Assembly: GCF_023195925.1 (NCBI RefSeq)
Contig: NZ_JALPRE010000007.1
Coordinates: 434,001-498,000, forward strand
Source of the DNA: Aquimarina acroporae
Lineage (GTDB): Bacteria; Bacteroidota; Bacteroidia; Flavobacteriales; Flavobacteriaceae
Direction of reading: 5' to 3'
Length of the DNA stretch: 64,000 nucleotides
The notes under the pieces were generated by a model. It searched no databases, was not told the DNA's origin, and saw only the letters and a list, made by a program, of their open reading frames with translations. Below, one piece after another: positions 21,224 to 42,524 of the stretch. Position numbers and translations under genes: made by a program. The first letter of the stretch is position 1; the number at the start of each line of letters is the position of its first letter.

Positions 21224-21913
21224 CTATTGAGCATAACTAGCTATTTCCTCAAGTGATAATTTTGCTCTATAGCTTGGAGAAAAAGTTCTGATTATACCTA
21301 TATCTCCGCTCATCAAAGATATTTGATCCTCGTTAATATTAATATTTAAAGAATTAGCATCTCTTTCAAATTGCTGTAATTTAAAATCTAATCTTTTTCT
21401 TATTATAACCTGATTTTTATTAAGTACAAATTTAAAGTCTTTATATTCAATAAACCTATTAAGACCATTAAACAAAACTTTAAATCCAAAAAAACCGATA
21501 ACTAAAAGCAAACCATTCAAGATCAGTATTAAAAGGTTTTTTTGGATATCGGAATAAAAATAATTAAACGTACCTGATAGACCATAAACACCGATAATAA
21601 AAAAAATCAACCCAACAAAAATCGCTATAAAATCCCCGATAGTAGCTTTTATTGACCTTGTTATTTCGAAAGATTTATTCTCGTTAAACCAACTAACATT
21701 AAAGCCAATATCGGTTAAGAATTTAAGTTCCTTAACTTCTTCCATTTCCTTTATAATCTGATCATTCAAACCTATAAAATATGGAGTATTCAAACCAAGA
21801 TTTCTTTTAAGAAGCTCTTTTTTTAATTCAATTTTTGCTATAAAGGTCAATGAATTGTAATTGTAAAGAACCTGTAATAGCTCTGTATTTGAATATTTAA
21901 TATAATTAGCCAT
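21224..21913 (-). CDS. Two-helix membrane protein, candidate immunity protein
   Basis: 229 residues: about 90 cytoplasmic residues, two membrane helices (about 91-112 and 125-148), then a 75-residue soluble tail. There is no signal peptide and no recognised family. It sits 71 bp after the RHS core protein, whose unique C-terminal tail is where polymorphic toxins carry their toxic domain, and it is clearly more AT-rich than the RHS genes; both are usual for immunity genes. A membrane protein in this role would suggest a membrane-acting toxin. It could also be an unrelated membrane protein; no pairing can be proved from sequence. Confidence 0.6.
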   Translation of the reverse strand: MANYIKYSNTELLQVLYNYNSLTFIAKIELKKELLKRNLGLNTPYFIGLNDQIIKEMEEVKELKFLTDIGFNVSWFNENKSFEITRSIKATIGDFIAIFVGLIFFIIGVYGLSGTFNYFYSDIQKNLLILILNGLLLVIGFFGFKVLFNGLNRFIEYKDFKFVLNKNQVIIRKRLDFKLQQFERDANSLNININEDQISLMSGDIGIIRTFSPSYRAKLSLEEIASYAQ

Positions 21914-21984
21914 TCAACAAAATTTTGTTCAAAAATAATATATCTCTAAATATTAATATGTTATTTTTTTCTAAAACATCTATA

Positions 21985-24900
21985 TTATTGTTCCTGATTA
22001 AAAATAATTCTTAATCCTAGTTTTAATTCCCCAGATATTGAATTACCATTAACATTTGGAGTAGAAGCATTGGCTTTTACTCCAACTTCTGCATTGTCTG
22101 ACCCGTTTTCAGAGGTCGAACCAGAAACATATACTCCATTACCTTTTACTCCTAAGGTCCCAGAGGCATTAACTGATTTTTCCTTTGTAAATACGTCTGT
22201 TTTTTGAGCTCCAGATAAAGTTACTCCCCCAACAGGTGAAATTGGCACAGATACTTTAAGTGAATTTTCAGTATAAACTTCTTTTTTTACTTTCCCCTTA
22301 AACACGGGATCATTAAAGCTAACATACCCTTCATTGTTTACACTATAGTTGGTAAAAACTTTCTCCAAATTTAATCCCCCTTCTGCAGTAATTTTAGTTT
22401 TCACTGCGGAAGATTGTGATTGAGTATCATCACCAGTTTTTTGAACTTCTTGGGAAGCTATTCCCGAAGCGCTTATAAATAATTGGTCAAAAAACGCTCC
22501 AATTTTAGCCAATCCAGCCAACGCTTCTCTACTCATCTCAGCATATACCGCTTGTTCATCAGAAACAACATCTCCAAAATCAACTTTTTCAAGCCCTTCC
22601 AGTTCAACACCCATTCCCATCTTATTCTCCTGAAAAGCATAAGTAGAATTATATATATAATCTTCTGCCAAAGGATCTATCTGCCAAAACCTACCAATAC
22701 TACGATCACTCATTCTGTATCGCCATTCATGAATGTTTAACCCTAACTCTTCTGTTAGCTCTTGACCTTGATATGTTTTTAAGTTATTCTTAGCATGCCT
22801 AATAGTAGCATTAATACCTTCCCATTGCATCCCAAAAGGATAATGGTTTTGCTCCCTACGTATTTCAGAAGCTTCTATACTACCATTGTTGTTATCATCT
22901 GCATAGGTAATTCTGGTGTTTTTCCAGATATCTTTATGCTGATATACATAAGTAAATGAGCCATCACTCTCCTTTTCAATATAGCCTTCAGGATGTGTAA
23001 TAGATTTCAAAGAACCATTCTCGTATACAAAATTACCATTATATTCGACATTAGTCACATTTCCGTTATCAGTAGCCGTCTTTTTTAACTTGATACCGTT
23101 AGCATCATAGACATATTGTATGTTTCCACTATGTTCTGGATTGGTAACATCAACCCGGGTAGGGAAGTTATGGTGGTTATAACTTACATTAGTAATTCCT
23201 TTATTCTTATCGATTAAAAGATTTCCATTTGCATCATAAGAATAATCATTACCCGTTGTATTTCTGTCTTTAAAACCATAAGAGGTATTTCCAGAGTCAG
23301 TAACACTTAATAGTTTATTTCCACTATCATATTGGTATGCTAATACATCAAGATTGGTATAGTTGGATGAGTTTTGCCAACCATTTCGAGTTAAACTCTC
23401 CAGATTCCCCATCTTGTCATAAACAATATTGCTTACATCATAGTTACCATCATGACTTGTAGCACTTAAAATACGCTCAAACCCATCATACTCATAAGCA
23501 TACCATCTCTTAACGTTGTCATTTGCTGTTTTCCATTCTACTTCTCCTAAATTGTACTTATACTGTGGCGTAGCGTTATGAGTTGGATTATTATATGCAA
23601 TTATAAATGAGAATAAATCATCCCCCAGATTATCAACATCATTAATCCCTTTAAGCCAACCATGAACATTGTAGGTGTAGTCTACCTCCTGCAATCCACC
23701 ACCAACATTCTTAGATTTTAATTGCCCTAAAGCGTCATAACTATTGCTAGCAATAAGCTCCTCATCTTGGCTATTAATCTTTTGGGTTTGCTGAGTCACT
23801 CTACCCATATGATCATACTTAAATGTATCTATCGTAACGATAGCGGCATTACTGCCTTTGGTATGGCTCGTTTTGGTTTGTAATACTCTACCTGTAAAAT
23901 CAAGTTCGGTTTCTATAATATCAGTGGTGTGTAGGTATTCATTTTCACTGGCTATATAGATCGGCCTTCCTTTGGCATCGTAATAGGTGACGGTAGTAAT
24001 CCAATCATCAGTACCCAATACCCGTACTTTGGTTCCTGTAGGGAGTGATTTGGCGTTGGTCGTTACGGCTTGCCCGAATACTGTGGTTGGAGTAGCTAAC
24101 GAACCTTTGTCAAATTCATAATCATCATAATAGTTGATAGTGTATACTGCATCAAACCTTGTAGGATATGCATTTTTACTGTAATACACAGGAGTACCTA
24201 CATACATATTTGCCGAACTGGTTTTACTCACAAATTGACGATAAGCTGCATCAGCTTCGGCTTGTATTTCTATTCTTGTTTTGCTATTACCTGTATCTTT
24301 ACCCGTATAGGTTACACGACCAAAAGCATCATAAAGTGTAAATAACCATTCACTTTTGTTTTTTTGATTTGTATCCTGAGTCATAATGGGCTGATCTAAT
24401 TTGTTATAAACAATATATTCCCATCCTTTTCCTGGTATTTTCTTTTCAACAAGGCGGTTACGTCCATCATAGATATATTGGTAACAGAGTTCGGCTAGCT
24501 CGGTAGCAGAAACCCCATCATTAACAGTTACCTTGGGAGGAATGACATAGGTGAGATTCCCAAAGTCATCATAGACATAATAGGTGTCATGTGCTATACT
24601 CTCATTGTATGTGCGTTTAAGAATAACCTGCCCTTGTTTGTTGGTGTATTCTTTGGTGGTATGGTTATTCCCATCTGCCACAGTCCAGTTTTCATCTTTG
24701 GTAGTGGTGACCATAAGCTCTCCTGCTCCATAATGATTGTTTTTTGCCAGACTTGGGGCTTCGGTATCGGCAGGATTGGCAAAAGCTACCTCAAAACGTA
24801 CTACCTCATTGGCTGTATTGGCCTCCCAACCAAATTTAATGGTGTGATCGCTATCGCTAGTAGGATTAGCTTTCCAGGCTGTTCCTGGTGCACCTTGTTT

Positions 24901-25374
24901 TAGTACCCTACCCAGTGGAGAGTCTTCATAGATACTTTCAGAATACGCATTGATATTAGCAGTAGCTACGCCTGTAAAATCATCGGCATAGGTGTTTTTA
25001 TAATAGGTATTAATATCATTGGTGATATTTACTGTAGTATATCCTCCCACTGCTGCATTCGACTCAAAGGGTAAATATTCTTTGGTTTGTCTACCCAGAT
25101 CATCATAGGTAATATGGGTAACAATATCCTTTTCATTAGGCGATGCTTTTATGGCTCTTTGTTGTATGGGTCTTCCCAGTCCATCAAAATAGGTGACTGA
25201 TTCTATATACTCCCCATCGAGTGTGGTACAGTTAGGACTTTCTAACTCACCTACCGTTATAGGTTGCTGGGGAATATTAGAATACACATAATTCTTGTCT
25301 GATAATGTGGTTTGGGCCTGCAACTGCATTCCCAAACACATTACAATAATGATATATATGATGTTTTTATTCAT
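21985..25374 (-). CDS. RHS/YD-repeat protein with RHS core and variable C-terminal tail (DUF6443 type)
   Basis: 1129 residues. A signal peptide (1-20) is followed by a DUF6443-like start (SVTYFDGLGRPIQQRA; YDDLGRQTKEYLPF), many YD repeats (NKLDQPIMTQD; YDAFGRVTYTG; YDSGNKLLSVTD) and the RHS-associated core near 905-930 (DRSIGRFWQIDPLAEDY). The last 205 residues after ELEGLE are unlike the core: Gly/Ser/Val-rich alternating strands (VSVPISPVGGVTLSGAQ). YD repeats form a shell that encloses a C-terminal cargo, in known polymorphic toxins a toxic domain. The tail matches no toxin I know and looks membrane- or surface-directed. It is 21 bp after the larger RHS gene and before the putative immunity gene. 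Confidence 0.92.
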   Translation of the reverse strand: MNKNIIYIIIVMCLGMQLQAQTTLSDKNYVYSNIPQQPITVGELESPNCTTLDGEYIESVTYFDGLGRPIQQRAIKASPNEKDIVTHITYDDLGRQTKEYLPFESNAAVGGYTTVNITNDINTYYKNTYADDFTGVATANINAYSESIYEDSPLGRVLKQGAPGTAWKANPTSDSDHTIKFGWEANTANEVVRFEVAFANPADTEAPSLAKNNHYGAGELMVTTTKDENWTVADGNNHTTKEYTNKQGQVILKRTYNESIAHDTYYVYDDFGNLTYVIPPKVTVNDGVSATELAELCYQYIYDGRNRLVEKKIPGKGWEYIVYNKLDQPIMTQDTNQKNKSEWLFTLYDAFGRVTYTGKDTGNSKTRIEIQAEADAAYRQFVSKTSSANMYVGTPVYYSKNAYPTRFDAVYTINYYDDYEFDKGSLATPTTVFGQAVTTNAKSLPTGTKVRVLGTDDWITTVTYYDAKGRPIYIASENEYLHTTDIIETELDFTGRVLQTKTSHTKGSNAAIVTIDTFKYDHMGRVTQQTQKINSQDEELIASNSYDALGQLKSKNVGGGLQEVDYTYNVHGWLKGINDVDNLGDDLFSFIIAYNNPTHNATPQYKYNLGEVEWKTANDNVKRWYAYEYDGFERILSATSHDGNYDVSNIVYDKMGNLESLTRNGWQNSSNYTNLDVLAYQYDSGNKLLSVTDSGNTSYGFKDRNTTGNDYSYDANGNLLIDKNKGITNVSYNHHNFPTRVDVTNPEHSGNIQYVYDANGIKLKKTATDNGNVTNVEYNGNFVYENGSLKSITHPEGYIEKESDGSFTYVYQHKDIWKNTRITYADDNNNGSIEASEIRREQNHYPFGMQWEGINATIRHAKNNLKTYQGQELTEELGLNIHEWRYRMSDRSIGRFWQIDPLAEDYIYNSTYAFQENKMGMGVELEGLEKVDFGDVVSDEQAVYAEMSREALAGLAKIGAFFDQLFISASGIASQEVQKTGDDTQSQSSAVKTKITAEGGLNLEKVFTNYSVNNEGYVSFNDPVFKGKVKKEVYTENSLKVSVPISPVGGVTLSGAQKTDVFTKEKSVNASGTLGVKGNGVYVSGSTSENGSDNAEVGVKANASTPNVNGNSISGELKLGLRIIFNQEQ

Positions 25375-25395: not shown

Positions 25396-28300
25396 TTAAA
25401 ATCCACCACCAAATCCTTTGATGACAATTATTGCAGAAGTTTTAGTTTTCTTTTGCCCGGTTCTGGTATCGGTCACCTCGACATCTATTTCATACTCTCC
25501 ACTTACATTTTCGGCAAAGGTCAAACTGGTTCCCGAACCACCACTATATTGTGTGGCAGGGCTGGAGATTCTGCGTATGGTCCATCTTTGCGTAAAACTT
25601 CCCGATCCTCCACTTCTATTTAAACTAAAGGTTACACTTGGTTCGGTGTCGGTAATCACTGCATTGGCCGGAGTGGTACTTATCGATAATGGGTTATAAG
25701 AATATACAGTACGTGTATTTGAACTCCATTTTGTATGTGTAGGCTGTATATTATTGTCGATTACTCTAAATTTGACAGTATAGGTACCCGCAGAAGGGAA
25801 ATTGTAGGAGAAACTGGTCCCCGTACCGCTCTGCTTTACATTGTTAATATACCATTCGTATCGACGGCTACCTGATCCTCCACCAATACCCGAGGCACTA
25901 AAACTCACACTAGTACCTTTTACAATATAACTTTTGGAAGCACTAATCGATGGAGTGCTCAATGGGTTACGAGAATATACCGTTACACTACGCTCACGAA
26001 CCAATCCTGAAATGTTATTATCGATCACTCTAAATTTGATAGTATAGGTACCCGCACTAGAGAAGGTTTTTACAAACCTGGTCCCGGTATATGATTGTTT
26101 TGTATTGTTGATATACCACTCATATCTACGGCTACCCGATCCTCCAGATATTCCAGAAGTATTAAAAGTAATCTGTGATCCTTTTAGGAAATCGCTACCT
26201 AAACTTGGGGATACATTTGGTGTATTCAACGTATTATAAGAGCGTACTGTTCGGGTATTACTCCATACGGCATGTGATGGAATGGTAGTATCGACTACTT
26301 TAAACCTTACAGAATATGTGGTCGCCGAAGGGAAATTGTATGAGAAGGTAGTTCCTGTAGCACTTTGCTTTACGTTATTGACATACCATTCATATCTTCT
26401 GTTTCCAGATCCTCCACCAATACCAGAGGCACTAAAACTTACGCTAGTTCCTTTTACAATATGACTTTTGGAAGCACTTATAGCAGGTGTACTTAAAGGG
26501 TTATAGATACGTAACACCCTGTTTGCAGTACTTCTTGTAGCTCCCGTAGTAGTATCAACAATTTTAAAATAGATCGTATACGTTCCTGTAGCACTAGTAT
26601 TTGCGCTAAACGTACTGCTGGTTGTACTCTGTTTTACATTATTTACATACCATTCATAGCTTAGGTTTCCAGACCCGCCTCCTATTCCTGAAGCGGTATA
26701 GCTTACCGATGCTCCTTTTACAATATAGGTATTGGCAGCACCGCTAATTGATGGAGTTTGCAATGCCGGATATGTCGCCGTAATCGTTTTTGAACTACTT
26801 GCGCTAAGTTTGGCTTGCGTATCATGAGCTAATAAAGAGATAGTATATGAATCTTCACTATTAAAGGTTTTGGTAAACGTTGTACTTGTAGCACACTGTT
26901 CTGTGGCACCATTTACCTTCCATGAATATAATATCTGACCTGCATTACCTCCTGTCGCGTTGGCAGTAAAGGTCACTGCTTGCCCAGGAACCACTGCAGT
27001 ATCACCTGGGTTAGTTATAGTAACATCGGTAATACCACCGCTTCCTGCTTGTTGCCCCTCATAGTTGTATCTATTTTGTTGTACAACATGCGCATCATCA
27101 TCTAAAGCATAGGCTAATCGATTAAATTCATCGTAGGTATAGAATGTCGTATACCCTCTTGGATCGGTCATCGAGGTAACTCCCACTAGTGGATCGAAGG
27201 TGTACGAGGTAATCTGAGCATTTTCAAAATAACTTTGCGCTCGTAAGTCATCGGCCAAATCTCGCATGGTTTGCTCTTCGGCAGCGGTGTTTTCGTTATT
27301 TGAAGCTGCTTTTAGACTATTGATAATGTTGGTTACCGCTGTAGGCATACCGGTATAACTGGCATTGCTAATTTTGGCAATTGGGTAATTGTTATTATAC
27401 CCCCAGATATAAATTATTGATGTGCCTTTTGCCTGTTTTACTTCTAGTGGGTTTCCTTTACTGTCGTAGGCTAGATACTCTACTCGATTATCGAGATTGG
27501 CTCCGGCTTTTGCAGTTTGTATATCGCCAGGTAGCGCCACACCATTCCAAATTTTATAATTGGTACGTTGGGTGTTCATTTGCTGGCCATCAACCCAGCT
27601 CTCCTGTTCGATTACTTCTCCAATACGATGGGCGGTTTTTAGATTCCCAATAGCAGTATAAGCTTCTGTAGAAAGCGCTTTCCCTAAAGAAGTTGTAGAG
27701 GTAATATCTCCAGGATAAAATGTTTTGGTAATCACCGTCTCTCCCAAACTATTGGTTGTTGTAGTTTGGGTAGGCATGGTTCTACCATTATATCCTGTAT
27801 CATAGGTATATTGACTAGTTGTTTTTACATTCCCCGATGGATAATATGTGGTTTTTTCGGTACTTGATGGTAAGTAGCGTTCACTTATATTGTCATAACG
27901 CTGGGCTTCATTCAAATCTCCAACCTTACCCATCATTAAGCTTTCGGTTCTAAGGTCATTGGCTGGTATAAAATTATTCTTGGTTTTTTCAATTAGGGTG
28001 AAACTACCTGATGATGTTTCATAGGCATAATGCTTTTGTTCTACCAATTGGCCTCTACGATGGGAATAATCGGTTGCAGGAATCATCAATTGACCGATAC
28101 CATCAAACTCATTGGATGCGCTAATCGCTCCATCAGAGGCATAGCTATACGTATATTCTGTCTTTCCGTTTTCTTCTCCTATATTATATTCGGTAACATT
28201 AAGGTAATTTACATGTGAGCCTCCTTGTCCATTTAATGGAAAGATTGCATTTGATCGTAAAACATCCTGACTGCAATTGGTAAAAGGGATTTTTTTAGAG

Positions 28301-30237
28301 ATAAAAATAGGTGGATTTAATGCTCTTCCACTAGATACCAACGCATTATCAAATTGCTGATAATCATATTTTTTGCTATTAATCATAGAATTATCTTGAT
28401 CCAAGTACTGGATTTCTTTTACTCGCAATCCTCCAACAATGGCTTCATTGGCAGTATTTGTATTAAAAGCTACTTTTCTGGTGGTCATAATATCAACGTA
28501 ATTCCTTCCTTGAAAAGGACCATTTTCTATTTTGATGGTATAGGTACCAGCACTTAAACGTTGAATGCCTGAATAATCCTTAGTTTCCCATGGAGTAACC
28601 AAAGTACTTCCTTTATACAACTCTATTTTAGGACAGTCAAGATCCGTACCTGTACAAGAAACTTCTACATCAACCTTATAATAAACATCTGTCAGTTCAT
28701 TAAGTGTAAAAGTTGTCTCAAAAGTTGTACCCGGAGCCTCTGGTTCATTTTGTAGTTGCCCTCCAGGAATTAACTCATCCTTCATCTTGGTTCCAACAAA
28801 AAAGTCTTGATTTCCCGATAAGGTATTCGATTCAAATATAAATTTGGTTTTACCTCCTGTAGGGTAGGTGATCTCCTCTAACAATAATGCTTTGGTATGC
28901 GCTTCACTAACAGTTCTATTGGCTCCATTTACTTGTATAGGAGTTGTATATGGTACATATACGATCTTGGGATATAACTTAGAATTATTAGCACCATTAT
29001 AATACCCCCAAAAATCTTGTGAAAACGAAAAACGTTCTGGTAATTGATGTGTTTGGTTATAGGTAAAACGATGTACTTTGTTAGATTTACTCCCTTTTTG
29101 CTGTGTCACACTTTTTAGATATAGTCTATGTGTACGTTGATTGGCTGTACCATCTTCTAGCAATCGCTCTAAGCCATTAGGAGCTACAAAATAACCATGA
29201 TCCAACTCATAACGATCAATAAGGGCATTGTTATAATCTAACAACTTTACAGCGGTAAGTGCCTTATCATGCTGAAGATCGGTTCGGTTATGGTTGTATT
29301 CTAATACAATACTCCCCCCAGTAGTGGTAATTGAGTTTAAATAAATAGGCTTGTAAATATCTTCACTCATGGAAATAGGCTCAACATTATTTAAACTACA
29401 ACCAGAACCATTGCCCAACAAATTTTTACTCTGCCCGGTAATGTTCCAATAATTAACTGCGGTTGCACCTTGAGAATAGTTGAAATTGATATGATTGCCA
29501 TTATAATCTGAAATTTGTGTCAAATACCAGCCTGTAGTATTTATATATCCATCTGGCAGATTCGTAGTAGATGTATGAAACCGGGTTTCTTTAATTTCAT
29601 GTACCTTTTGATTGGTACCTGGTACTACTCCAAAAATATATTGTATACCCATCGGGGTGGTGACCTGCCACCCTGAAATGGTAATCCCATCACGAAGGGC
29701 AACAATTTTTAAATCACTTTTTTGGTGCACCACAATGGTGCCATCCTGATTAAAAAAGAACTTACCAGCCAGACCTGCTACATTAATATGATACATATCG
29801 GATTCATAGTCTTGCTGTCGTTGCATTGCTAAATCAAAAAGAGTACTTCTATTATTAGCATTTTGAGCAAAATAGTGATCGATAGTATTACTAGTATTGA
29901 TGAATCCTTCTTGATGATCATCGGCAATACCTCGTACCTGTCGGGAGATCATCCCTCCTGCATTTAAGGCCCAACCCAGGCCCACTCGCGAAGCCATTTC
30001 GCTTACTCGTATTCCTGAAGCATGGTAGCTCAAACTTACCGAGGCGTTTAACCCTCCTTCAGAAATACTGGTAAGTGGAACAGAAATGTTTGGGGTACCC
30101 GTGTTTAAACTCATAGGTACATCTAAATATTTTCCCATGGCTGCCACCTCTGGTGTGGGTGGTGCCAAATCTGGTACCTCCTGGCTATACCCATAGCCAA
30201 CTAAACATACCAAAACAAAAAACAATTGTTTTCTCAT
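25396..30237 (-). CDS. Giant exported RHS-family protein with six PKD-like repeats
   Basis: 1613 residues. A signal peptide (about 1-18) precedes an N-terminal region typical of Bacteroidota RHS partners (TPEVAAMGKYLDVPMSLNTG; SLSYHASGIRVSEMASRVG), YD-type repeats (about 720-1060, ending YTTFYTYDEFNRLAYALDDD), then six PKD/Ig-like repeats from about 1067 to the end (each GxGxGxxRYEWYxNNxKQS plus a strand pattern). It lacks the RHS-associated core, which is in the next gene, so the two together may form one shell. The gene is preceded by a 452-bp leader region whose promoter is homologous to that of the pseudopilin operon. Nothing suggests a frameshift between the two RHS genes: each has its own signal peptide. 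Confidence 0.9.
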   Translation of the reverse strand: MRKQLFFVLVCLVGYGYSQEVPDLAPPTPEVAAMGKYLDVPMSLNTGTPNISVPLTSISEGGLNASVSLSYHASGIRVSEMASRVGLGWALNAGGMISRQVRGIADDHQEGFINTSNTIDHYFAQNANNRSTLFDLAMQRQQDYESDMYHINVAGLAGKFFFNQDGTIVVHQKSDLKIVALRDGITISGWQVTTPMGIQYIFGVVPGTNQKVHEIKETRFHTSTTNLPDGYINTTGWYLTQISDYNGNHINFNYSQGATAVNYWNITGQSKNLLGNGSGCSLNNVEPISMSEDIYKPIYLNSITTTGGSIVLEYNHNRTDLQHDKALTAVKLLDYNNALIDRYELDHGYFVAPNGLERLLEDGTANQRTHRLYLKSVTQQKGSKSNKVHRFTYNQTHQLPERFSFSQDFWGYYNGANNSKLYPKIVYVPYTTPIQVNGANRTVSEAHTKALLLEEITYPTGGKTKFIFESNTLSGNQDFFVGTKMKDELIPGGQLQNEPEAPGTTFETTFTLNELTDVYYKVDVEVSCTGTDLDCPKIELYKGSTLVTPWETKDYSGIQRLSAGTYTIKIENGPFQGRNYVDIMTTRKVAFNTNTANEAIVGGLRVKEIQYLDQDNSMINSKKYDYQQFDNALVSSGRALNPPIFISKKIPFTNCSQDVLRSNAIFPLNGQGGSHVNYLNVTEYNIGEENGKTEYTYSYASDGAISASNEFDGIGQLMIPATDYSHRRGQLVEQKHYAYETSSGSFTLIEKTKNNFIPANDLRTESLMMGKVGDLNEAQRYDNISERYLPSSTEKTTYYPSGNVKTTSQYTYDTGYNGRTMPTQTTTTNSLGETVITKTFYPGDITSTTSLGKALSTEAYTAIGNLKTAHRIGEVIEQESWVDGQQMNTQRTNYKIWNGVALPGDIQTAKAGANLDNRVEYLAYDSKGNPLEVKQAKGTSIIYIWGYNNNYPIAKISNASYTGMPTAVTNIINSLKAASNNENTAAEEQTMRDLADDLRAQSYFENAQITSYTFDPLVGVTSMTDPRGYTTFYTYDEFNRLAYALDDDAHVVQQNRYNYEGQQAGSGGITDVTITNPGDTAVVPGQAVTFTANATGGNAGQILYSWKVNGATEQCATSTTFTKTFNSEDSYTISLLAHDTQAKLSASSSKTITATYPALQTPSISGAANTYIVKGASVSYTASGIGGGSGNLSYEWYVNNVKQSTTSSTFSANTSATGTYTIYFKIVDTTTGATRSTANRVLRIYNPLSTPAISASKSHIVKGTSVSFSASGIGGGSGNRRYEWYVNNVKQSATGTTFSYNFPSATTYSVRFKVVDTTIPSHAVWSNTRTVRSYNTLNTPNVSPSLGSDFLKGSQITFNTSGISGGSGSRRYEWYINNTKQSYTGTRFVKTFSSAGTYTIKFRVIDNNISGLVRERSVTVYSRNPLSTPSISASKSYIVKGTSVSFSASGIGGGSGSRRYEWYINNVKQSGTGTSFSYNFPSAGTYTVKFRVIDNNIQPTHTKWSSNTRTVYSYNPLSISTTPANAVITDTEPSVTFSLNRSGGSGSFTQRWTIRRISSPATQYSGGSGTSLTFAENVSGEYEIDVEVTDTRTGQKKTKTSAIIVIKGFGGGF
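25640..27040 (-). repeat. Tandem coding repeats (PKD-like units) in the giant RHS gene
   Basis: Six units of about 240-290 bp. Units 3 and 5 (near 26450-26180 and 25920-25690) are nearly identical in nucleotide sequence, and the others are more diverged. Recombination between them could change the number of units. Confidence 0.75.
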
Positions 30238-30450
30238 AAAACTGTCTTTAATTGATTATTTGTGATTTTTCCTTTTTTTGTAATCCAACCTCATTTGGCA
30301 TTTGTGCTTGTGAATCTTAAGGGGTAAGAAGAGAATTCTTCTCTTTTTGTGCCTACTCCTATAAAAACTTAACCCCTTCGATTCACAACCTAAACACAAC
30401 TATTTTATAAAAACGAGCTTGACTAACTCGATGCAATATTAAGGTATGCC

Positions 30451-33852: not shown

Positions 33853-34319
33853 TTCAAAATATCAAATCGCTTCGTTTTTCCTTTATATCTTAGTTGCACC
33901 CATGAATTGGTTCCTTTGGTCAATCTTACTTCTGAAACTTCATCATTTCTCTTCATTAACTGGTCGACACCATTAATCTCGATCAAATAAATAGCCGTAG
34001 CTCCTTGTCCACCTGTCACCAAACCTTTATATCGAATAGTTGGCCAATTTATTTCTGGTGGTTTTGGTCTAGTAACTTTTGGTTGTACCAGTTCTTTTTT
34101 AGGGATATACATCGTACCTAAAAAAGGATCTCTTTCTGCAGCAGAAATGGTAAACACCTCTCTTTCTTTTCCTTCTATTTTAGAAAATGTGACCGCAGAG
34201 GTATTCACAAGTACAGGATCATCATCAGAAAAGGCGTCGGTTACCTGATAGATAATCGCCCCCCATATACCTAATACAAGTGGTAACAATACATATAATG
34301 CTTTTTTACCTTTTAACAT
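33849..34319 (-). CDS. PilP/GspC-like inner-membrane assembly protein
   Basis: 156 residues: a cytoplasmic stub, one membrane helix (about 7-25), a Pro-rich linker (KVTRPKPPEINWP) and a small C-terminal beta domain (IRYKGLVTGGQGATAIYLIEING...VQLRYKGKTKRFDIL) with the strand order of the homology region of PilP/GspC, which docks to the secretin N-domains. The RDPFLG segment before the linker is also usual in PilP. It lies six bases after the FN3 lipoprotein gene. Assignment is by pattern and position. Confidence 0.7.
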   Translation of the reverse strand: MLKGKKALYVLLPLVLGIWGAIIYQVTDAFSDDDPVLVNTSAVTFSKIEGKEREVFTISAAERDPFLGTMYIPKKELVQPKVTRPKPPEINWPTIRYKGLVTGGQGATAIYLIEINGVDQLMKRNDEVSEVRLTKGTNSWVQLRYKGKTKRFDILN

Positions 34320-34325
34320 CGATGT

Positions 34326-35255: not shown

Positions 35256-35300
35256 ACGTTTAAATTTTAGTAATTGTCTAAATAAATTAATGATAAAATT

Positions 35301-35327
35301 GAGAACGTATGTTACCACTTCGTTCTC
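35301..35327 (-). terminator. Weak hairpin inside the secretion operon
   Basis: The arms GAGAACG and CGTTCTC are separated by 13 bases within the 197-bp gap between the two lipoprotein genes, and on the minus strand AATTTT follows. It could be an attenuator or processing site that lowers expression of the distal genes. Support is limited. Confidence 0.3.
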
Positions 35328-35515
35328 CTATTAAGAATTTTAAAACATTCTCGTTGGTGAAATAATTTTTAAATTTCTTGATGTTCGATTCATATATCGA
35401 TACTATTATTTTTTAATTGTAAGCTAGAATTACGCAACACTCAGTGATCTTTATTTCTTCTCTTCATTGAGCTCTTTGTTCAATTCCTTACACTATTTTT
35501 TTGGTTTTCTTTTTA

Positions 35516-36262
35516 TTACAACTTAAAATAATCCATTTTTTCCTGAGCCTTACTGGCGTCTCGATAAGCATCATTCCCACAAGTTCCTGTTTTGTCTACA
35601 ATACCTGATAGCACTACTTTTCTTTTCCCATTTATTTTCCAGCAAAAATAAGATTGTTGATACCCAAAAATGGAGGTAGCAGCAAAATCGATTGTTTTAT
35701 AGGTTTTACCACCTCTCACCAAAGCAATTTGATACTGTTTATATTTTTGATTTTCTAAAAAAACAGCTTCAGCTATTAGAATTTCCCGTATTATTTGTTG
35801 TGGTAATGCCAGCGAAACCGCTGTTACTACACCAGCATTTTTTTGGTTTTTGAGATATTGTATGACATGATCATTTTCTTCATTTTTCATTTCAGAAAGC
35901 AACGTGATTTGGTCAAGGATTTCTAATTTTAAAAAGCCTGGTTTTGCTTTCACTGAATCGACATATTTTACATGCTGCTTATTATTTTGAGATACTTTTA
36001 GATAGGCTTTATAGGTACTTTCATTAAAATCGGTTGAAGTGACTCCTACGCGAATAGCATTATTATAGGTTGGCAATGCAGTTTCCTTAAAATCGGATGA
36101 AAGAATATCAGTATTTTGAACACCTATTACCCCTAATGCAATGGGAGGAGTAACTGCCGTTTGCATTTTAGAATTCTTTACATTAATACTCTTACAGCAT
36201 ACCAATGTAAAGCTGATGAATATCAACATAAAATGTTTTCTATATATATACATGTTTTTCAT
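35516..36262 (-). CDS. Lipoprotein of the secretion operon, function unknown
   Basis: 248 residues. The signal sequence ends in LVCC, an imperfect lipobox with two adjacent cysteines. The mature part has an N-terminal region rich in Thr/Val and a helical middle (LLSEMKNEENDHVIQYLKNQK), then a strand-rich end with FGYQQSYFCWKINGKRK. No family was recognised. It lies 10 bp after the PilO-like gene. Position suggests a role like that of a pilotin, which guides the secretin to the outer membrane; this is inference only. Confidence 0.7.
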   Translation of the reverse strand: MKNMYIYRKHFMLIFISFTLVCCKSINVKNSKMQTAVTPPIALGVIGVQNTDILSSDFKETALPTYNNAIRVGVTSTDFNESTYKAYLKVSQNNKQHVKYVDSVKAKPGFLKLEILDQITLLSEMKNEENDHVIQYLKNQKNAGVVTAVSLALPQQIIREILIAEAVFLENQKYKQYQIALVRGGKTYKTIDFAATSIFGYQQSYFCWKINGKRKVVLSGIVDKTGTCGNDAYRDASKAQEKMDYFKL

Positions 36263-36272
36263 AGTTGTTTTT

Positions 36273-36791
36273 TTAATTCAAACGTTGCAACAAAATGTTA
36301 CACTGTAAATACGTTTTCCTAGTTCTAAAGTTTTTTTTCTTTTCAAAACTCATTTGTATGACATTCCCAAAACTATATTTTTGTTCAAGTGCATACACCA
36401 CATTAATTAGTGATTGGTAGTCACCTTGTATTGTAAAATTATAGGTTGTTGTAGTTTTTTCACTTCCTTCATCGGTAAAAACATGTGGTTCTTCAAAGCC
36501 TACCAAAGTAAACCCAGAATCGCTAGACAATGTATTCAGGGTTCTTAAAATATTGTTCTGCAAAGAACTCCCTTCAACATTGTTTTTCTGGAGAATTTCG
36601 TTTAGTTGTTTTTCTTTATTTGCCAAAGCAGCTAACTGTACCGGAGCAGATTGATACGCCTCCTTCTGTTGCTCAAGTTTGGTAACTTCATTGCTCACCG
36701 CAAAAGTTTTGGCAAATCCAAAACGATAGGCGAAAAGGAACACCAATAACAACCCTATGATCAGAATAATATTTTTATTTCTTTGTGTCAT
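36273..36791 (-). CDS. PilO/GspM-like inner-membrane protein
   Basis: 172 residues: one membrane helix (about 8-25), a coiled coil (about 30-75, VTKLEQQKEAYQSAP...LANKEKQLNEILQKN) and a small ferredoxin-like domain (about 80-172, with the strand TYNFTIQGDYQSLINVVYALEQK). This is the layout of PilO and GspM, which dimerise with PilN/GspL in the alignment complex. It overlaps the PilM/PilN-like gene by 17 bp. Confidence 0.8.
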   Translation of the reverse strand: MTQRNKNIILIIGLLLVFLFAYRFGFAKTFAVSNEVTKLEQQKEAYQSAPVQLAALANKEKQLNEILQKNNVEGSSLQNNILRTLNTLSSDSGFTLVGFEEPHVFTDEGSEKTTTTYNFTIQGDYQSLINVVYALEQKYSFGNVIQMSFEKKKNFRTRKTYLQCNILLQRLN

Positions 36792-37983
36792 GGGCTAATT
36801 GTATTATAAGTTCAAAACTTGACGTATTTTTTTTATCTACGCCATAACTAGCAATGGTAACTCTGGTTACAAAATCTAAATTTTCGATAGCATTTAACCA
36901 CGAAGTAAAATCTTTTTTATCGATAGAATTTCCCGTAACAGATATCACATGGTTTTTAATTTGAATGGGTTTATCATTGCGAATAGTTTTTGCCAAAGGC
37001 TGATATACAAAAGAAGAAAGCAATATTGTGGTTGGCTGCAAGGCAATAATTCTATCTGCATATAAGGAGCTTTTAGAAAACCCAGTAGTTAAAATACTAT
37101 TGACGATAGCTTCTTTACCCGCAACAATGGTTTGTTGTCTTTTGATACTTTCATTTTGACTGGTGTATACTTGAATCTCTTCTTGTAACCCTTGCCACTT
37201 CTTATACTTCGAATTAAACACAAAGAAATTAATAAGAAGTGTAATCAATAAAAACCCGACACCATATTGCAATGCTTTTTTAAAAAAAGTAACCTCTTTG
37301 TATTGCTCCCGTAGATGCTGATTGAGATCTGCTACATTTCCACTAATTTTAGCTTGGTGAGAAAAAGAATCTAATGTCATTGCTAATGGAAGTACATGCG
37401 AACTCCCTACACCTAAACCTTGTATTTCATAATGCTTAGATAATTCGGTGCTCCGATTAATTGCAGTCACTTGAGTATTGTGCAATGTAATACTCGAAGT
37501 ATGCGTTAACAATTCATCAGTATCAATAAAAGAGGTTAAGCTAGCTGCTTTAAGATTCCCTAAAGCCACTTCGGTAATTATAATTTTTTCCTTTCTATAT
37601 GCATTTATGATTTCATCTACCTTAGACTTTCGGCAAATAGCTATAAAGGATTTAGCATCTGTTTTGAGAATCTCATAGTAAAAATCATCGAGATTTAAAT
37701 TTGGATACGCTTTTGATAAAACCTCATGATCTGCACCAATTGTATCTACTTCTTTGGTAAGTAAACTACCATTAGTAATAGCAATACCAACTCTTGGAAT
37801 AGTTTTCACTTCATCTGCCACATCCTGAATTTGATGCACCGTAAAAGTATGAGAGATATCGAGTTCTTCTTTTTTCAACTGGATTTGAAGGCCTAAGATG
37901 ATCTGCTCGTTATCATTCCCAGAATGTTCGAGTGTGACATAGGTTTTACCCATAGGGTTATATGAAGAGAACTTTGTACCCAT
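36775..37983 (-). CDS. PilM-PilN/GspL-like assembly protein
   Basis: 402 residues. A cytoplasmic actin-like part (about 1-230; RVGIAITNGSLLTK, ALGNLKAAS) resembles PilM or the cytoplasmic domain of GspL. Then come one membrane helix (about 240-260, YGVGFLLITLLINFFVF), a coiled coil (about 265-300) and a PilN-like periplasmic domain ending near 400. Having both parts in one chain resembles GspL rather than separate PilM and PilN. It starts at the last base of the secretin stop codon (1-bp overlap). It links the ATPase to the periplasmic PilO-like protein. Confidence 0.75.
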   Translation of the reverse strand: MGTKFSSYNPMGKTYVTLEHSGNDNEQIILGLQIQLKKEELDISHTFTVHQIQDVADEVKTIPRVGIAITNGSLLTKEVDTIGADHEVLSKAYPNLNLDDFYYEILKTDAKSFIAICRKSKVDEIINAYRKEKIIITEVALGNLKAASLTSFIDTDELLTHTSSITLHNTQVTAINRSTELSKHYEIQGLGVGSSHVLPLAMTLDSFSHQAKISGNVADLNQHLREQYKEVTFFKKALQYGVGFLLITLLINFFVFNSKYKKWQGLQEEIQVYTSQNESIKRQQTIVAGKEAIVNSILTTGFSKSSLYADRIIALQPTTILLSSFVYQPLAKTIRNDKPIQIKNHVISVTGNSIDKKDFTSWLNAIENLDFVTRVTIASYGVDKKNTSSFELIIQLAHDTKK

Positions 37984-40187
37984 TAATAAAATACAGTAGG
38001 TTTTATAATTACATTAAGTCTTCGTTTTGAATCTTCTCTTACTCTTTTACTGAACAACCATTTTATGATCGGAATACGAGATAGTAAAGGCACTCCCGAA
38101 CCAGAATCGTTTTTCACTTTTTGTTCAATGCCTCCTAATATTGCTACATCATTCGCCTGCATGCGCATGATAGACGAAAACCTTCTACTATTGATATCTG
38201 GTGGTGCATTTTCAGCAATACGTTCGCCACTAAAATTAGATTGAATTACCTGGATATCGAGTGTTATTTGCCCATCTCCAGAAACAAAAGGCTTAAACTC
38301 TAATGCTAGTTCAGCATCTATAGGCTGATAATTTACGATCTCAGAGGTTTGTGGATTCTGAGACCCGAAAATATTCTGACTAGTAACTGCATAATAGGTA
38401 GTTTGTCCACTAGACAAATAGGCTTTATGGCCATTTAATGTACTTAACTTAGGTGTAGAAAGAATCTTTACATTACCGTTGGTCTCCATTGCCTTGATAT
38501 CCATGTAAAAGTTAGGAACCACATTCCCAAGGTTTAAAGATCCAAAACCATCAAAACCACCAATAATTCGATTAATGGTTTGTGCACCTAGGGTTATATT
38601 GGCATTTGGAAAAGCTACTCCTTCATCGTTTACAGGTTCTTTACCTAACCCAAACTCTACTCCTGTTTCTACGGTAGCAGATCGATTGACTTCCAAAATC
38701 ATAACTTCGATAAGAATAAGAGGAACTGGCTTATCCACATATTTTACGAAGTTTTTGAATTTTTCGACCTTTGCCCCCGAACCACTAACAACAAAACTAT
38801 TAAGTTCTGTATCTATCTTAATATCTAAACCCTGAGTAACACTAAGTGGAAATATATCTGAAATAGATCCTGCTTCATTACTTTGTGAGGAACCTGTTCT
38901 TGAGAAATTATTTCCTGAATTAATTCGATTTCTTGAATTGAGCCCTCCTTGGTTTAAACCGTTATTTTGGTTACTACCAAAATAACTAGTTCCTCCTGTA
39001 ACAAAATTGTTATTATTGAAGCTATTTCCGTAAGAAGTAGATGGATTGGCATCTCCTAACATAGCTATAGATCTATGCATCATCTGCACCAATTCAATTT
39101 TTTTAATAGAAAGCTGATCTTCCGTTCCAAAATAATAGATATTTCCTTCTTTTTTAAAGGTGAAATTTCCAGAATTATTTGAAGTGCCAGTTTGAAAATT
39201 TTGAGAAGTAGTATTATTGGGCGTACTCAAATTTGAACTATTATTGGAAGCAGTCGAAGAACTTTTACTCTCAAAAATCTTAATTAATAAATCGTCGAAA
39301 CTTATAGCTTCTGCCTTTACAGTAACAGAACCAGCATTTTCTAAAGGAGAAGCTGTAAAGACATCTAGATCCAAATCCTCGGTAATATTATATACCACAT
39401 CTGAAATAGGTGTATTTTTGAGATCTACTGAAATTACTTTATTGATAGAATCTACTACTTTGTAGTAAAAGTTTCTGCGGTTTCTAAATGGCCTCCCGGT
39501 GCCACCTGAAGTATCACCCCCTTCTAAACTATCGAACTCATAAAACCCATCTCTCGTTTTATTAAAATCGAGATTATTCGCTTCTGCCAATTTTCTTAAA
39601 GCGATATCAACAGGAACATCGCTAATAAAAAGAGTAACCATTTTGTTATTCAAACTTGGAGAAAACAATAAGTTCTTTCCCGAGATCTCGGTAATTTTTC
39701 TAAATACTTTTGGCAACGGATCATTGCTAAAATCTGTAGATAACGTCTCCCTGCTCACATCGTAAGATGCTATCATTTCTTTTTCAACCGGGGTCTGAAC
39801 TGGAGGAACATATTTTCGTATTGATAAAATATTTCCAATAAAATCGATATCTAATTTATATTCCTTCGTTAAAAAAAGTAATAATTCCTGAACACTAACA
39901 TTGTTAAATCCATTTATAATTGTAATACTATTCAACTCTTCGGAAACATTAATATTAATTTTGTGAACTTGGGCTACCGCTCTCAAAAAATTAAGTAAAC
40001 TAGTATTGGATAGGTTGATATTTACCTTTTGAGTTAATGCAGGAACATCTACACTTAACAACTGCAGCTTATTTTCGATTGTAGCAATCCTGTTTTTTTC
40101 ATTGGCCATGTCTTGCAAGGAACCCTGGGCGAGGGATACCCATGCAAAACCAAAAAAGAAACCAAGTATTATTATATATTTTTTCAT
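37983..40187 (-). CDS. gspD: Secretin (GspD/PilQ-like outer-membrane channel)
   Basis: 734 residues. A signal peptide (about 1-20) is followed by an STN/N0-like domain (about 50-120, NLSNTSLLNFLRAVAQVHKI), a second N-domain (about 145-215), a third (about 245-310), a long Asn/Ser/Gly-rich linker (about 310-440) and the secretin domain (about 470-734; VPLILIEVMILEVNR, NVKILSTPKLSTLNG, VPLLSRIPIIKWLFSKR). Secretins form the 12-15-mer outer-membrane gate of T2SS and T4P. The Asn-rich linker is unusually long. The gene is 33 bp after the ATPase gene. Confidence 0.94.
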   Translation of the reverse strand: MKKYIIILGFFFGFAWVSLAQGSLQDMANEKNRIATIENKLQLLSVDVPALTQKVNINLSNTSLLNFLRAVAQVHKININVSEELNSITIINGFNNVSVQELLLFLTKEYKLDIDFIGNILSIRKYVPPVQTPVEKEMIASYDVSRETLSTDFSNDPLPKVFRKITEISGKNLLFSPSLNNKMVTLFISDVPVDIALRKLAEANNLDFNKTRDGFYEFDSLEGGDTSGGTGRPFRNRRNFYYKVVDSINKVISVDLKNTPISDVVYNITEDLDLDVFTASPLENAGSVTVKAEAISFDDLLIKIFESKSSSTASNNSSNLSTPNNTTSQNFQTGTSNNSGNFTFKKEGNIYYFGTEDQLSIKKIELVQMMHRSIAMLGDANPSTSYGNSFNNNNFVTGGTSYFGSNQNNGLNQGGLNSRNRINSGNNFSRTGSSQSNEAGSISDIFPLSVTQGLDIKIDTELNSFVVSGSGAKVEKFKNFVKYVDKPVPLILIEVMILEVNRSATVETGVEFGLGKEPVNDEGVAFPNANITLGAQTINRIIGGFDGFGSLNLGNVVPNFYMDIKAMETNGNVKILSTPKLSTLNGHKAYLSSGQTTYYAVTSQNIFGSQNPQTSEIVNYQPIDAELALEFKPFVSGDGQITLDIQVIQSNFSGERIAENAPPDINSRRFSSIMRMQANDVAILGGIEQKVKNDSGSGVPLLSRIPIIKWLFSKRVREDSKRRLNVIIKPTVFY

Positions 40188-40220
40188 CTAATTATTATAT
40201 TATTTTACAGGCCCCAGACC

Positions 40221-41633
40221 TTAATGGGTAGCCAAAAGTGCATAGACTTCTTCTACCGAAGTAAGCCCCTCAACGACCAGTCGTATTGCGTTTGTTTTTA
40301 ATGTTTTAATATTATTTTGGGTGATATAGTCATCTATTTGCAATTCATTATGCCGTATAGTTGTTTCTAATTCTTTCGTGATCGGTAATATTTCATAGAT
40401 TGCTTTTCGTCCTAAATATCCAGTTTGATAGCAGTGATTGCATCCTTTTGCTACATAGTGCTTGTTTAATTCTTCAGGAATCTCAAAACCTAAAGGAAAG
40501 TCTTTGATTTCCGATTTTTTTTCCTTTTTACAATGATGACAAAGTTTACGCACCAATCGTTGAGCGATACTCATGGTTAATGTACTAGCCAACAAAAATG
40601 AAGGCACTTTCATATCAATAAGTCTTGATATGGTTGCCCAGGCAGAATTAGTATGTATTGTAGATAATACCAAGTGGCCTGTTAGCGCCGCTTTAATTGC
40701 CATATTCGCAGTTTTGTCATCTCGTATCTCACCAACCATGATTACATCTGGGTCCTGTCGCAAAAAAGCTCTTAACGCTGCAGGAAAATCGAACTCGATA
40801 TCTTCTCGCAACTGCACTTGATTTACTCCTTCTAGGGTATATTCTATAGGATCTTCTATGGTTAAAATATTAGAAACCTCTTTATTTAGCTCTTTTAGTG
40901 TTGCATATAAGGTGGTGGTTTTTCCCGAACCCGTAGGACCAGAAATCAAAATAATACCTTGTGGCTTTTTAATGGCTTCACGATATAATTCTAGTTCCTG
41001 TTCTGTAAACCCCAGATCATCAAGCTGCACCTGTTGTGTATCCCGATTTAAAAGTCTCAATACAATTTTTTCACCATACAGTGTTGGCATTGTAGATACA
41101 CGAATATCAAATTCTTCTCCTCCACTTTTAAATGTAATTCGACCATCCTGAGCCAAACGTTTTTGAGAAATATCTAAGCCTGATTGAATTTTGATTTGAT
41201 TTACCAACTGGGGGAATTCTTTCTTGGTAATCGTATACATCTCCTTTAGCTTTCCATCTAACCTAAAACGTACCCTGCAAAACTTCTCATAAGACTCCAT
41301 ATGAATATCACTACTACCAAAATCTTTTGCTGTAGTAATGAGTTTTTGCAAAAAATTGTCTTCGTAATGAAGTTTTTCATTAGAAGTACTTGATTTTCGA
41401 TAATTGAGAGTAAGATAAGATTGTATATTGTCTGATGTCTCAGAAACCAATACGATATCTTGGTTTAATATAATAGAAAGTTCTTTTTGCAAACTTTCCT
41501 GATCAAGAGTATCCGTTTTAAAATGAACAGTATTATCTTCTTTTTCAACCGGTATAATTCTATAATGAAATGCCTGGTTAGAGGTAATTAACTGTTTTAA
41601 CTGAACTGGTATTTCAAAAGTATCTGCACTCAT
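40221..41633 (-). CDS. gspE: GspE/PilB-like assembly ATPase
   Basis: 470 residues. N-terminal domain about 1-90, then the ATPase core with the Walker A motif at 232-240 (GPTGSGKTT), the Asp box (IEDPIEY), Walker B (DPDVIMVGEIRD), the His box (GHLVLSTIHTN) and a tetracysteine zinc site (LCHHC...CNHC) near 375-410. It is the hexameric motor for pseudopilus assembly. Its start overlaps the peptidase stop by one base. No PilT-like retraction ATPase is present, which fits a T2SS-like rather than a retractile pilus system. Confidence 0.95.
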   Translation of the reverse strand: MSADTFEIPVQLKQLITSNQAFHYRIIPVEKEDNTVHFKTDTLDQESLQKELSIILNQDIVLVSETSDNIQSYLTLNYRKSSTSNEKLHYEDNFLQKLITTAKDFGSSDIHMESYEKFCRVRFRLDGKLKEMYTITKKEFPQLVNQIKIQSGLDISQKRLAQDGRITFKSGGEEFDIRVSTMPTLYGEKIVLRLLNRDTQQVQLDDLGFTEQELELYREAIKKPQGIILISGPTGSGKTTTLYATLKELNKEVSNILTIEDPIEYTLEGVNQVQLREDIEFDFPAALRAFLRQDPDVIMVGEIRDDKTANMAIKAALTGHLVLSTIHTNSAWATISRLIDMKVPSFLLASTLTMSIAQRLVRKLCHHCKKEKKSEIKDFPLGFEIPEELNKHYVAKGCNHCYQTGYLGRKAIYEILPITKELETTIRHNELQIDDYITQNNIKTLKTNAIRLVVEGLTSVEEVYALLATH

Positions 41634-42115
41634 TATATTAGATATAAGTTTATTGTATTCGACATCCAGTTTGCAATAAATATCAGAAGTAAAAAAGCGG
41701 CCATATACCCTGCCAAAGGTGTACCCTCATGATGACTTTTATGTTTCATCAGTAACCAAACCAATAATGAAAAGATCAAAGAAAACACAAAGATGATCAC
41801 AAAAGTTACCGATGGGAAAGCTACAGCTAATGCCAAAAAATACAGACCATCAGCAAATCCAAATACTTCTTTAAAAAACGGCCTCTTAATAATGAGCCAA
41901 GCATATAGGTATAATATCCCGAGGATCAACCCTACTAAACTTACATTTATTGCTATTGCATTAAAAAAATGAAGTCTTAATACATTGGTAAAATGCAAAT
42001 ACCCTAATAGAAAGATAAGTGCAGGCAGCAAAAACCAATACACTTCTCTGCTTCTAAGGTCTTGATATGTTATATATCCCAAATTCAAAACTATAAGTCC
42101 TTTTACCAAAAGCAT
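41633..42115 (-). CDS. Short prepilin peptidase (GxGD aspartic protease, A24 family)
   Basis: 160 residues from the ATG at 42115, two bases after the pseudopilin stop; a longer frame from 42199 would overlap the pilin gene. It has about five membrane helices. The two catalytic aspartates are in TYQDLRSREV near the N-terminus and in GFADGLYFL in the middle, the variant of the GxGD motif. It lacks the N-terminal methyltransferase domain with the CxxC pair found in PilD/GspO, so it resembles TadV or archaeal enzymes. It would cleave the four pseudopilins of the operon. Confidence 0.85.
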   Translation of the reverse strand: MLLVKGLIVLNLGYITYQDLRSREVYWFLLPALIFLLGYLHFTNVLRLHFFNAIAINVSLVGLILGILYLYAWLIIKRPFFKEVFGFADGLYFLALAVAFPSVTFVIIFVFSLIFSLLVWLLMKHKSHHEGTPLAGYMAAFLLLIFIANWMSNTINLYLI

Positions 42116-42116
42116 A

Positions 42117-42524
42117 TTAATCTTGTACGATCTGTTTTGGGCTTCCTTTTTCGTCAATTTCCCAAACATTAAATACCCCGTCACCATCAAAATCGACAAC
42201 TGCAGTAGCTCTCGCCTTAAAATTAGAGATAGAAGCTTCTATAATTTCATAGCTGTAGTTTGCAACACCACCACCTTTTACTGTAACCGGTGCCTCATAA
42301 TTAATTTCGGTAAAGTCTAAAGAATATTTAGAATTTAAAAATCTATACTGTGTTTGCATATTGCTTATAGTCTTCAACTGTATTTTTGCCTCTTGCGCCT
42401 TTGTTTGAGCAATAAGAGGTAAGAAATTAGGCAATGCAATTAACAGTAAAATCCCTATGATAGCCAGTACCAATAGCATTTCCTGAAGATTAAAAGCTTT
42501 GAGCTTATATATTTTCAAACGCAT
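42117..42524 (-). CDS. gspG: Major pseudopilin, GspG-like
   Basis: 135 residues. Class III signal: KLKA before F-N-L-Q-E-M, then the hydrophobic helix (LLVLAIIGILLLIALPNFL). Ala stands at -1 in place of Gly; Glu is at +5. The globular part ends with FDGDGVFNVWEID, a stretch like the calcium-binding loop of GspG proteins, which points to the major pseudopilin. It is the first gene of the operon, with its promoter 120 bp upstream. Confidence 0.9.
   Translation of the reverse strand: MRLKIYKLKAFNLQEMLLVLAIIGILLLIALPNFLPLIAQTKAQEAKIQLKTISNMQTQYRFLNSKYSLDFTEINYEAPVTVKGGGVANYSYEIIEASISNFKARATAVVDFDGDGVFNVWEIDEKGSPKQIVQD

Follow-up and report, generated by a model that had tools for sequence, protein, structure and literature searches.

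The window analysed here is a stretch of 64,000 nucleotides from the genome of Aquimarina acroporae, a member of the Flavobacteriaceae (RefSeq assembly GCF_023195925.1, contig NZ_JALPRE010000007.1, positions 434,001 to 498,000 of the forward strand). On its minus strand, positions 30690-42524 encode a 13-gene machine that resembles type II secretion systems (T2SS) and type IV pili (T4P). Next to it lie the genes for two large RHS proteins, designated RHSA and RHSB, and for a membrane protein, and it is the relationship between the machine and the RHS proteins that is considered here. All machine genes named in a first-pass annotation (pseudopilin, peptidase, ATPase, secretin, PilM/N-, PilO- and PilP-like proteins, minor pseudopilins, GspF and two lipoproteins) are present on this strand, and one gene that had been omitted, encoding a bactofilin-like protein, has to be added. 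Lipoboxes, signal peptides, hydrophobic stretches and membrane anchors mentioned in the following were called by eye from the sequence. The machine consists of these genes:

42117-42524, minus: major pseudopilin-like protein, 135 amino acids (aa); NCBIfam TIGR02532 (prepilin N-terminal motif), 22.6 bits, cut-off 16.3
41633-42199, minus: prepilin peptidase (A24), 188 aa by first start; Pfam Peptidase_A24, E 9e-5, 23.3 bits, cut-off 26.5
40221-41633, minus: assembly ATPase (PilB/GspE type); PF00437 (T2SSE), E 4e-128
37983-40187, minus: secretin; PF00263, E 3e-38; closest solved chains are PilQ
36775-37983, minus: PilM/PilN (GspL)-like inner-membrane protein, from its position and conservation beside the secretin; Pfam PilN weak, E 0.09
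36273-36791, minus: PilO/GspM-like protein; NCBIfam GspM_XpsM, E 2e-4, below cut-off
35516-36262, minus: lipoprotein 1, 248 aa; lipobox; homologues in 11 open reading frames (ORFs) of the compared loci
34326-35318, minus: Ig-like lipoprotein, 330 aa by first start; Ig-like domain, E 2.5e-5, below cut-off; lipobox
33849-34319, minus: PilP/GspC-like protein; profile of 15 relatives against the solved GspC chain 2lnv, E 0.003
32584-33852, minus: bactofilin-like protein, 422 aa, conserved component; Bactofilin, E 0.003, below cut-off, alignment of 14; N-terminal hydrophobic segment
32288-32596, minus: minor pseudopilin-like protein, 102 aa, from its sequence and conserved place in the block
31823-32284, minus: minor pseudopilin, 153 aa; Pfam N_methyl, E 3e-5, above cut-off
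30690-31820, minus: GspF/PilC platform protein; PF00482, E 5e-45

The major pseudopilin is also matched by the GspG, PilA, ComGC and ComGE models, in all cases below cut-off. The frame of the peptidase overlaps the pilin gene and its true start may be further in. A search of solved structures with the PilM/PilN-like protein yielded no match. Beyond gspF, the RHS module has the following features:

30290-30400, minus: strong hairpin, leader or terminator; fold z -3.6, 0 of 200 shuffles as stable
25396-30237, minus: RHSA, 1613 aa, type 1, TcB-like half-shell; SpvB-like N-terminus, four PKD stretches at the C-terminus
21985-25374, minus: RHSB, 1129 aa, TcC-like half-shell with variable C-terminal tip; DUF6443, E 2e-41
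21985-22539, minus: tip of RHSB after residue 945, where similarity to a paralogue stops; candidate toxin part
21224-21913, minus: membrane protein, 229 aa, directly after the tip; candidate immunity protein, a paralogue of RHSB having another protein in that place
21036-21186, minus: two short stretches, possible cassette border; DNA shared with the sequence after the paralogue's downstream gene

RHSB starts 21 bp after RHSA, and signal peptides were recognized in both proteins. The closest relatives of RHSA stem from Aquimarina and Poritiphilus.

The distribution of the two elements was analyzed in 299 genomes of the family, representing 236 genera, in which PF00263 located 64 secretin places in 61 genomes. 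RHSA was detected with a profile (A6, matches up to E 1e-8), and matches to DUF6443 were counted to about E 1.7e-6, the linkage counts for DUF6443 being lower bounds. RHSA or DUF6443 was found in all 61 secretin-bearing genomes as opposed to 10 of the 238 others (Fisher 1.6e-53). DUF6443 alone occurred in at least 64 genomes, at least 55 of which also encode a secretin (Fisher 2e-43). These genes are not only present but close: of the 64 secretin places, 54 have RHSA or DUF6443 at a distance of no more than 30 kb and 52 at no more than 20 kb, which, for the family and in this one direction, bears out the co-occurrence within 20 kb that the first pass had proposed to test. For DUF6443 alone, at least 36 of the 64 places have a match within 30 kb, compared with 2.2 expected at random in genomes of 4 Mb. 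Three of the ten unlinked places reside on short contigs (3.5, 12 and 26 kb). When genomes with the second type of RHSA described below were excluded, RHS genes were still present in 24 of 24 secretin genomes, within 30 kb in 23 of them, versus 7 of 235 others. The statistics treat genomes as independent, for which a sample of 150 genomes from one genus provides a partial control. Here, 15 genomes have a secretin, 50 have DUF6443 and 14 have both (14/15 versus 36/135, p 6e-7). In the part of a 395-genome phylum sample that belongs to the same class, DUF6443 was present in all 13 secretin genomes. As a separate observation, genomes of the single genus that have no listed secretin (e.g. G719, G765, G777, G783) encode giant DUF6443 frames of about 3270-3310 aa, a distinct size class.

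Maps of 56 composite stretches, including the window and the place of a second RHSB gene and covering 46 of the 64 family secretin places, revealed that the machine is made up of two blocks, one with the genes for the lipoproteins, PilP, the bactofilin-like protein, the minor pilins and GspF, the other with those for pilin, peptidase, ATPase, secretin, PilMN and PilO. The RHSA-RHSB pair is located before, between or after these blocks and on either strand, such that the order varies while closeness is kept. Among 80 named RHSA loci, which were found with a type-1 RHSA query, 57 contain RHSB, in 54 cases no more than two ORFs away from RHSA. RHSA comes in two types. The window harbors the common type 1, which is scattered over machine-linked and unlinked loci in the RHSA tree. 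A purely machine-bound RHSA family was thus rejected, since type 1 is widespread without machine genes nearby. Type 2 (about 1500-2100 aa) forms a single clade with a support of 100. Note that the type-2 rows of this tree all stem from machine loci by design and that partial RHSA sequences and those of L115, L127 and L160 were dropped; the unbiased figure is 40 family genomes with type-2 RHSA, 37 of which have a secretin. Of the first loci, 13 have a gene for OmpH/Skp and 12 one for a lipoprotein next to type-2 RHSA, and further loci have them as well. Pfam OmpH was above cut-off for all three OmpH/Skp genes tried. Neither gene was present in the 80 type-1 loci.

On the secretin tree, a long form of type-2 RHSA coincides with one secretin clade (10/10). 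Elsewhere on this tree, the distribution of types 1 and 2 takes 12-13 changes compared with 13.6-16.2 for shuffled labels, where labels were set by hand, 17 of 65 rows remained unlabelled and the trees were calculated by a quick method. As these are hardly fewer changes than for shuffled labels, it seems that the cargo-like genes were swapped repeatedly and yet remained close to the machine, which is more in keeping with a functional link than with common ancestry. Two further gene families were encountered in the compared loci. A gene of about 225 aa is often found beside the pilin gene; the copy at L034:11891-12586 resembles response regulators (Pfam 27.4 bits, just under cut-off), and its loose similarity cluster extends over 18 machine loci and 23 others. 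Proteins with "NVGIGTTNP" repeats are often encoded beside RHSA, in 15 machine loci and 15 others.

RHSA and RHSB can be compared with the B and C components of Tc (ABC) toxins. RHSA combines an SpvB-like N-terminal domain with an RHS shell, as in Tc B, while RHSB combines an RHS core with a variable tip, as in Tc C, although the core of the window protein is a weak NCBIfam match (29.1 bits, cut-off 32.5). In a fold search, the models of RHSA and RHSB covered residues ~18-1266 and ~1315-2161 of fused TcdB2-TccC3 chains in most rows, so that the two proteins are predicted to tile the two halves of the shell. They differ from Tc toxins by their signal peptides, the PKD repeats and DUF6443, and none of the 20 window proteins scanned gave a match to a TcA family. 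TcA rows were not among the results of the fold searches either, which has no bearing on whether a TcA partner is absent. They also differ from Rhs effectors of type VI secretion systems (T6SS), as there are two chains with signal peptides and as no PAAR or VgrG was found by Pfam.

The genome contains a single RHSA gene and two RHSB genes with DUF6443. The second RHSB gene is located on another contig (L112:9522-13534) and is not preceded by RHSA in the 9.5 kb upstream. Over the first 945 residues, the paralogues have 66% of amino acids in common, and their DNA agrees to 85.5% along about 1.8 kb; beyond this, their tips differ. While the window RHSB is followed by the 229-aa membrane protein, the second gene is followed by one for a 135-aa membrane-anchored protein, the start of which overlaps the RHSB stop. 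Further downstream, the DNA of the two places matches again over 54 bp (88.9%, 21133-21186) and 39 columns (87.2%, 21036-21072). A conserved body, a different tip and next gene, and a return of DNA similarity thereafter constitute the pattern of replacement of a cassette of toxin tip and immunity gene. A conserved body, a swapped tip and a different small neighbouring gene are also what characterizes polymorphic toxins. The lone RHSA could serve both RHSB caps. The last 300 residues of the window RHSB gave no Pfam match and the tip was modelled with low confidence, so that no fold is claimed; the 229-aa protein matched no family and had no homologue among the compared ORFs. Some tips in the machine-linked set match toxin families, e.g. 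AHH, Cytotoxic and Toxin-JAB1. Orphan RHSB fragments were seen in relatives. At L041 and L042, both from G017, tandem RHSB fragments are accompanied by the same set of ORFs (176, 296, 310 and 527 aa), reminiscent of an orphan-tip array or a repeated element. A protein with a CHAT domain and TPR repeats is encoded near the module (16709-19348, plus strand).

Which class of machine is present? Secretin, ATPase, GspF, pseudopilins and prepilin peptidase, the latter just under its Pfam cut-off, are encoded in one locus, as is typical of the T2SS gene set. Class membership via NCBIfam equivalogs was tried and rejected because none of the curated cut-offs was reached, neither those for T2SS (GspD 142/351, GspE 478/630, GspF 226/424 and GspG 32/89 bits) nor that for PilB (ATPase, 491/676 bits). 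The secretin is nearest to PilQ, rows for which came first among solved chains; TIGR02515 was the best NCBIfam model, yet scored 161 of the required 284 bits. The genome (5.18 Mb in 53 contigs, 100% complete by table) encodes one secretin only, and its single T2SSE-family match is the machine ATPase. A PilT retraction ATPase is therefore absent. According to the available part of a comparative study, the so-called T2SS of Bacteroidetes branches with type IVa pili (T4aP), and a novel T4aP-derived secretion system independent of T2SS was raised as a possibility (Denise et al. 2019, PMC6668835). The text accessible for a second study ties the Bacteroidetes "T2SS" to cellulose use in Cytophaga and lists relatives in Flavobacterium, Pedobacter and Odoribacter (Wang et al. 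2017, PMC5553014). The system of Cytophaga hutchinsonii shares secretin, ATPase, GspF, peptidase, pilins and PilM/N/O/P-like genes with the window machine. It differs in that no RHS cargo is named there, the term "RHS" not occurring in the accessible text, while RHS is constant among the secretin genomes of the family sample. The view that T2SS are unusual in the phylum is thus only partly right: secretins occur in 61 of 299 family and 179 of 395 phylum-sample genomes, though many of the latter are of other kinds, and the Cytophaga system has been described, as far as this text goes (PMC5553014).

We consider export of RHSA and RHSB by the pilus-derived machine to be the best explanation for the sequence data and hold it with somewhat better than even confidence. 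The same degree of confidence applies to the suggestion that the locus exemplifies a recurrent module of Bacteroidota, in which a T2SS-like envelope machine is combined with a polymorphic toxin made as two half-shells. In such a mechanism, RHSA as a TcB-like base and RHSB as a TcC-like cap with a replaceable toxin tip would enter the periplasm via their signal peptides and would be held or half-assembled there. The ATPase-driven pseudopilus and the secretin would then pass the shell or unfolded chains across the outer membrane, and the membrane protein encoded beside the tip would protect the producer cell. Gene content, linkage, co-occurrence within the family, likeness of the models to the Tc shell, exchange of tips and lack of type IX tails are observed, whereas we infer the role of the RHS proteins as cargo, the direction of travel, toxicity and immunity. 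Type IX export by means of a sorting tail was rejected. TIGR04183 and TIGR04131, which we take to represent the type IX C-terminal sorting domains, were found neither in RHSA and RHSB of the window nor in 65 machine-linked and 96 other RHS C-termini, bearing out the first-pass statement that the RHS proteins show no such domain.

Several observations weigh against export by the machine. Known secretin channels may not be wide enough for a folded shell of the Tc type. The presence of OmpH/Skp in type-2 loci fits clients that are kept unfolded and would answer this concern, but the window is devoid of both the OmpH/Skp and the type-2 lipoprotein gene. Type-2 RHSA occurs without a secretin in three family genomes. 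In one of these, G130, GspF is represented by a frame of 155 aa instead of the usual ~375 and a stop is listed in RHSA, which may indicate decay, although the stop alone is no sign of it because six secretin genomes also list type-2 RHSA stops; GspF gave no match in the other two genomes. DUF6443 without a secretin is present in 36 of the 50 DUF6443-positive genomes of the single genus and, among the phylum-sample genomes that belong to the class, in 27 of 40, which means that the machine is not required by RHS proteins of this kind in every case. Machine genes were seen in the fetched flanks of only about 10 of the 80 named RHSA loci, a count made by judgement (11 flagged; L115, L127 and L160 set aside as single weak hits; L128 and L164 added for the second block) and probably too low: the contig of L114 equals G211 contig C13 in length, so that the two are presumably identical, and on C13 a machine block is located just beyond the L114 stretch. 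The nearest tree relatives of the window RHSA have no machine in their flanks, L114 being the probable exception. Also note that the genomes are related and that the p values therefore overstate the association. Within the window, a gap of 452 bp separates gspF from RHSA. It contains the hairpin and a terminator-like site at 30430-30414, a kind of site that chance would produce there just as often; the RHS genes may therefore be a separate transcript. The claim that the RHS genes and the membrane protein directly follow the machine thus holds for the order, while the directness has to be qualified. The hairpin-arm motif had no copy in 212 fetched loci, and the Bacteroidetes promoter consensus gave no match before RHSA, the pattern being no rarer than chance.

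Outside the class, DUF6443 is present in 19 of 166 secretin genomes and absent from 147. What had been named as refuting export, namely a secretion cluster usually found without RHS genes, is not seen in the family (61/61), so that the first-pass reading is upheld there, in this one direction and for one kind of secretin. When 19 high-scoring secretins from outside the class were picked by hand, 12 lay 6.6-13.9 kb from DUF6443; they were chosen from the best-scoring rows, and since the equally high-scoring family f18 was left out by hand because of shorter frames and of DUF6443 in just one genome, 12/19 is not an unbiased rate. Several of the genomes with picked secretins hold a further, lower-scoring secretin elsewhere (in G429, near). 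This pattern implies that the RHS link belongs to one kind of secretin. In family f18, some genomes have two or three secretins, DUF6443 was listed for only one genome (E 5.5e-4), and the secretin system is probably a different one.

In principle, the proximity of machine and RHS genes could be explained in other ways. The machine may export other cargo, such as enzymes, and occupy the same genomic hot spot as the RHS toxins. The occurrence of RHS genes without the machine and a Bacteroidetes system of the same kind tied to cellulose use, in the accessible text of PMC5553014, can be cited in favour of this. A hot spot would explain closeness but not the presence of RHS in 61 of 61 genomes including those without RHS nearby, and the linkage outside the class persists in genomes with a second secretin elsewhere, with the exception of G429; we regard this alternative as unlikely. 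Alternatively, the machine may be a competence pilus for DNA uptake, with the RHS toxins killing neighbours to release DNA, so that the two would be tied by function and not as exporter and cargo. The secretin nearest to T4aP PilQ and the branching of Bacteroidetes systems with T4aP (PMC6668835, available part) would fit, as would the ComGC and ComGE matches of the pilin, albeit below cut-off. This pilus would have to work without a second, PilT-type ATPase, which the genome lacks. Such an ATPase need not always be present for DNA uptake. The signal peptides of RHSA and RHSB in combination with the absence of a type IX tail and the OmpH/Skp genes beside type-2 RHSA, which point to periplasmic client handling, render a DNA-uptake pilus quite improbable.

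It is also conceivable that the RHS proteins, instead of leaving the cell through the machine, serve as its decoration or cap, or that they are built up on the pseudopilus into surface structures whose delivery depends on contact. PKD repeats on RHSA, the Ig-like lipoprotein and the bactofilin-like protein among the conserved genes agree with this, and so does the width of the shell relative to that of the secretin. However, RHSA-RHSB loci without nearby machine genes are common, and the shell thus seems not to need a scaffold, so that we see very little probability in this proposal.

The proposed export of RHS proteins by the machine touches on earlier literature. A 2012 survey of polymorphic toxins, as far as its available part goes, gives T2SS among the export labels of many RHS-bearing toxin families occurring in Bacteroidetes, and RHS repeats and tips such as AHH resemble those seen here; in that part, the label is tied to no particular machine (PMC3482391). 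For Flavobacterium psychrophilum CC-ST10, the accessible text of a 2018 report describes a 35-kb cluster in which two T2S loci are accompanied by an OmpH/Skp gene and by two proteins carrying ABC-toxin domains; a dedicated translocation role is suggested (PMC5808330). This cluster resembles the type-2 RHSA loci, and the neighbourhood of machine and RHS genes is hence already in print for one case. The report differs in that it concerns a single lineage, reads the cluster as possibly virulence-related and, in the text available, mentions neither a general rule nor an exchange of tips or a pairing of half-shells (PMC5808330). A general account of the one-way rule linking machine and RHS, the two RHSA types, the TcB/TcC tiling or the shared base was not found in the open-licence literature.

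The rule connecting machine and RHS joins two questions: by which route RHS toxins that bear signal peptides get across the outer membrane of Bacteroidota, and what this phylum's T4P-derived "T2SS" chiefly carries. More tentatively, and with slightly less than even confidence, we propose that Bacteroidota own a dedicated exporter for polymorphic toxins, whose descent from type IV pili was independent of T2SS and which moves two-part Tc-like RHS shells, that the OmpH/Skp holdase and the lipoprotein act as client factors in the type-2 form, and that a single RHSA base is shared in trans by several RHSB caps. If the rule connecting machine and RHS does reflect export, it would add a secretion route for polymorphic toxins beside T6SS and the type V and type VII secretion systems (T5SS, T7SS), and the 2018 observation in the fish pathogen, as given in the accessible text (PMC5808330), would become a case of a general system.

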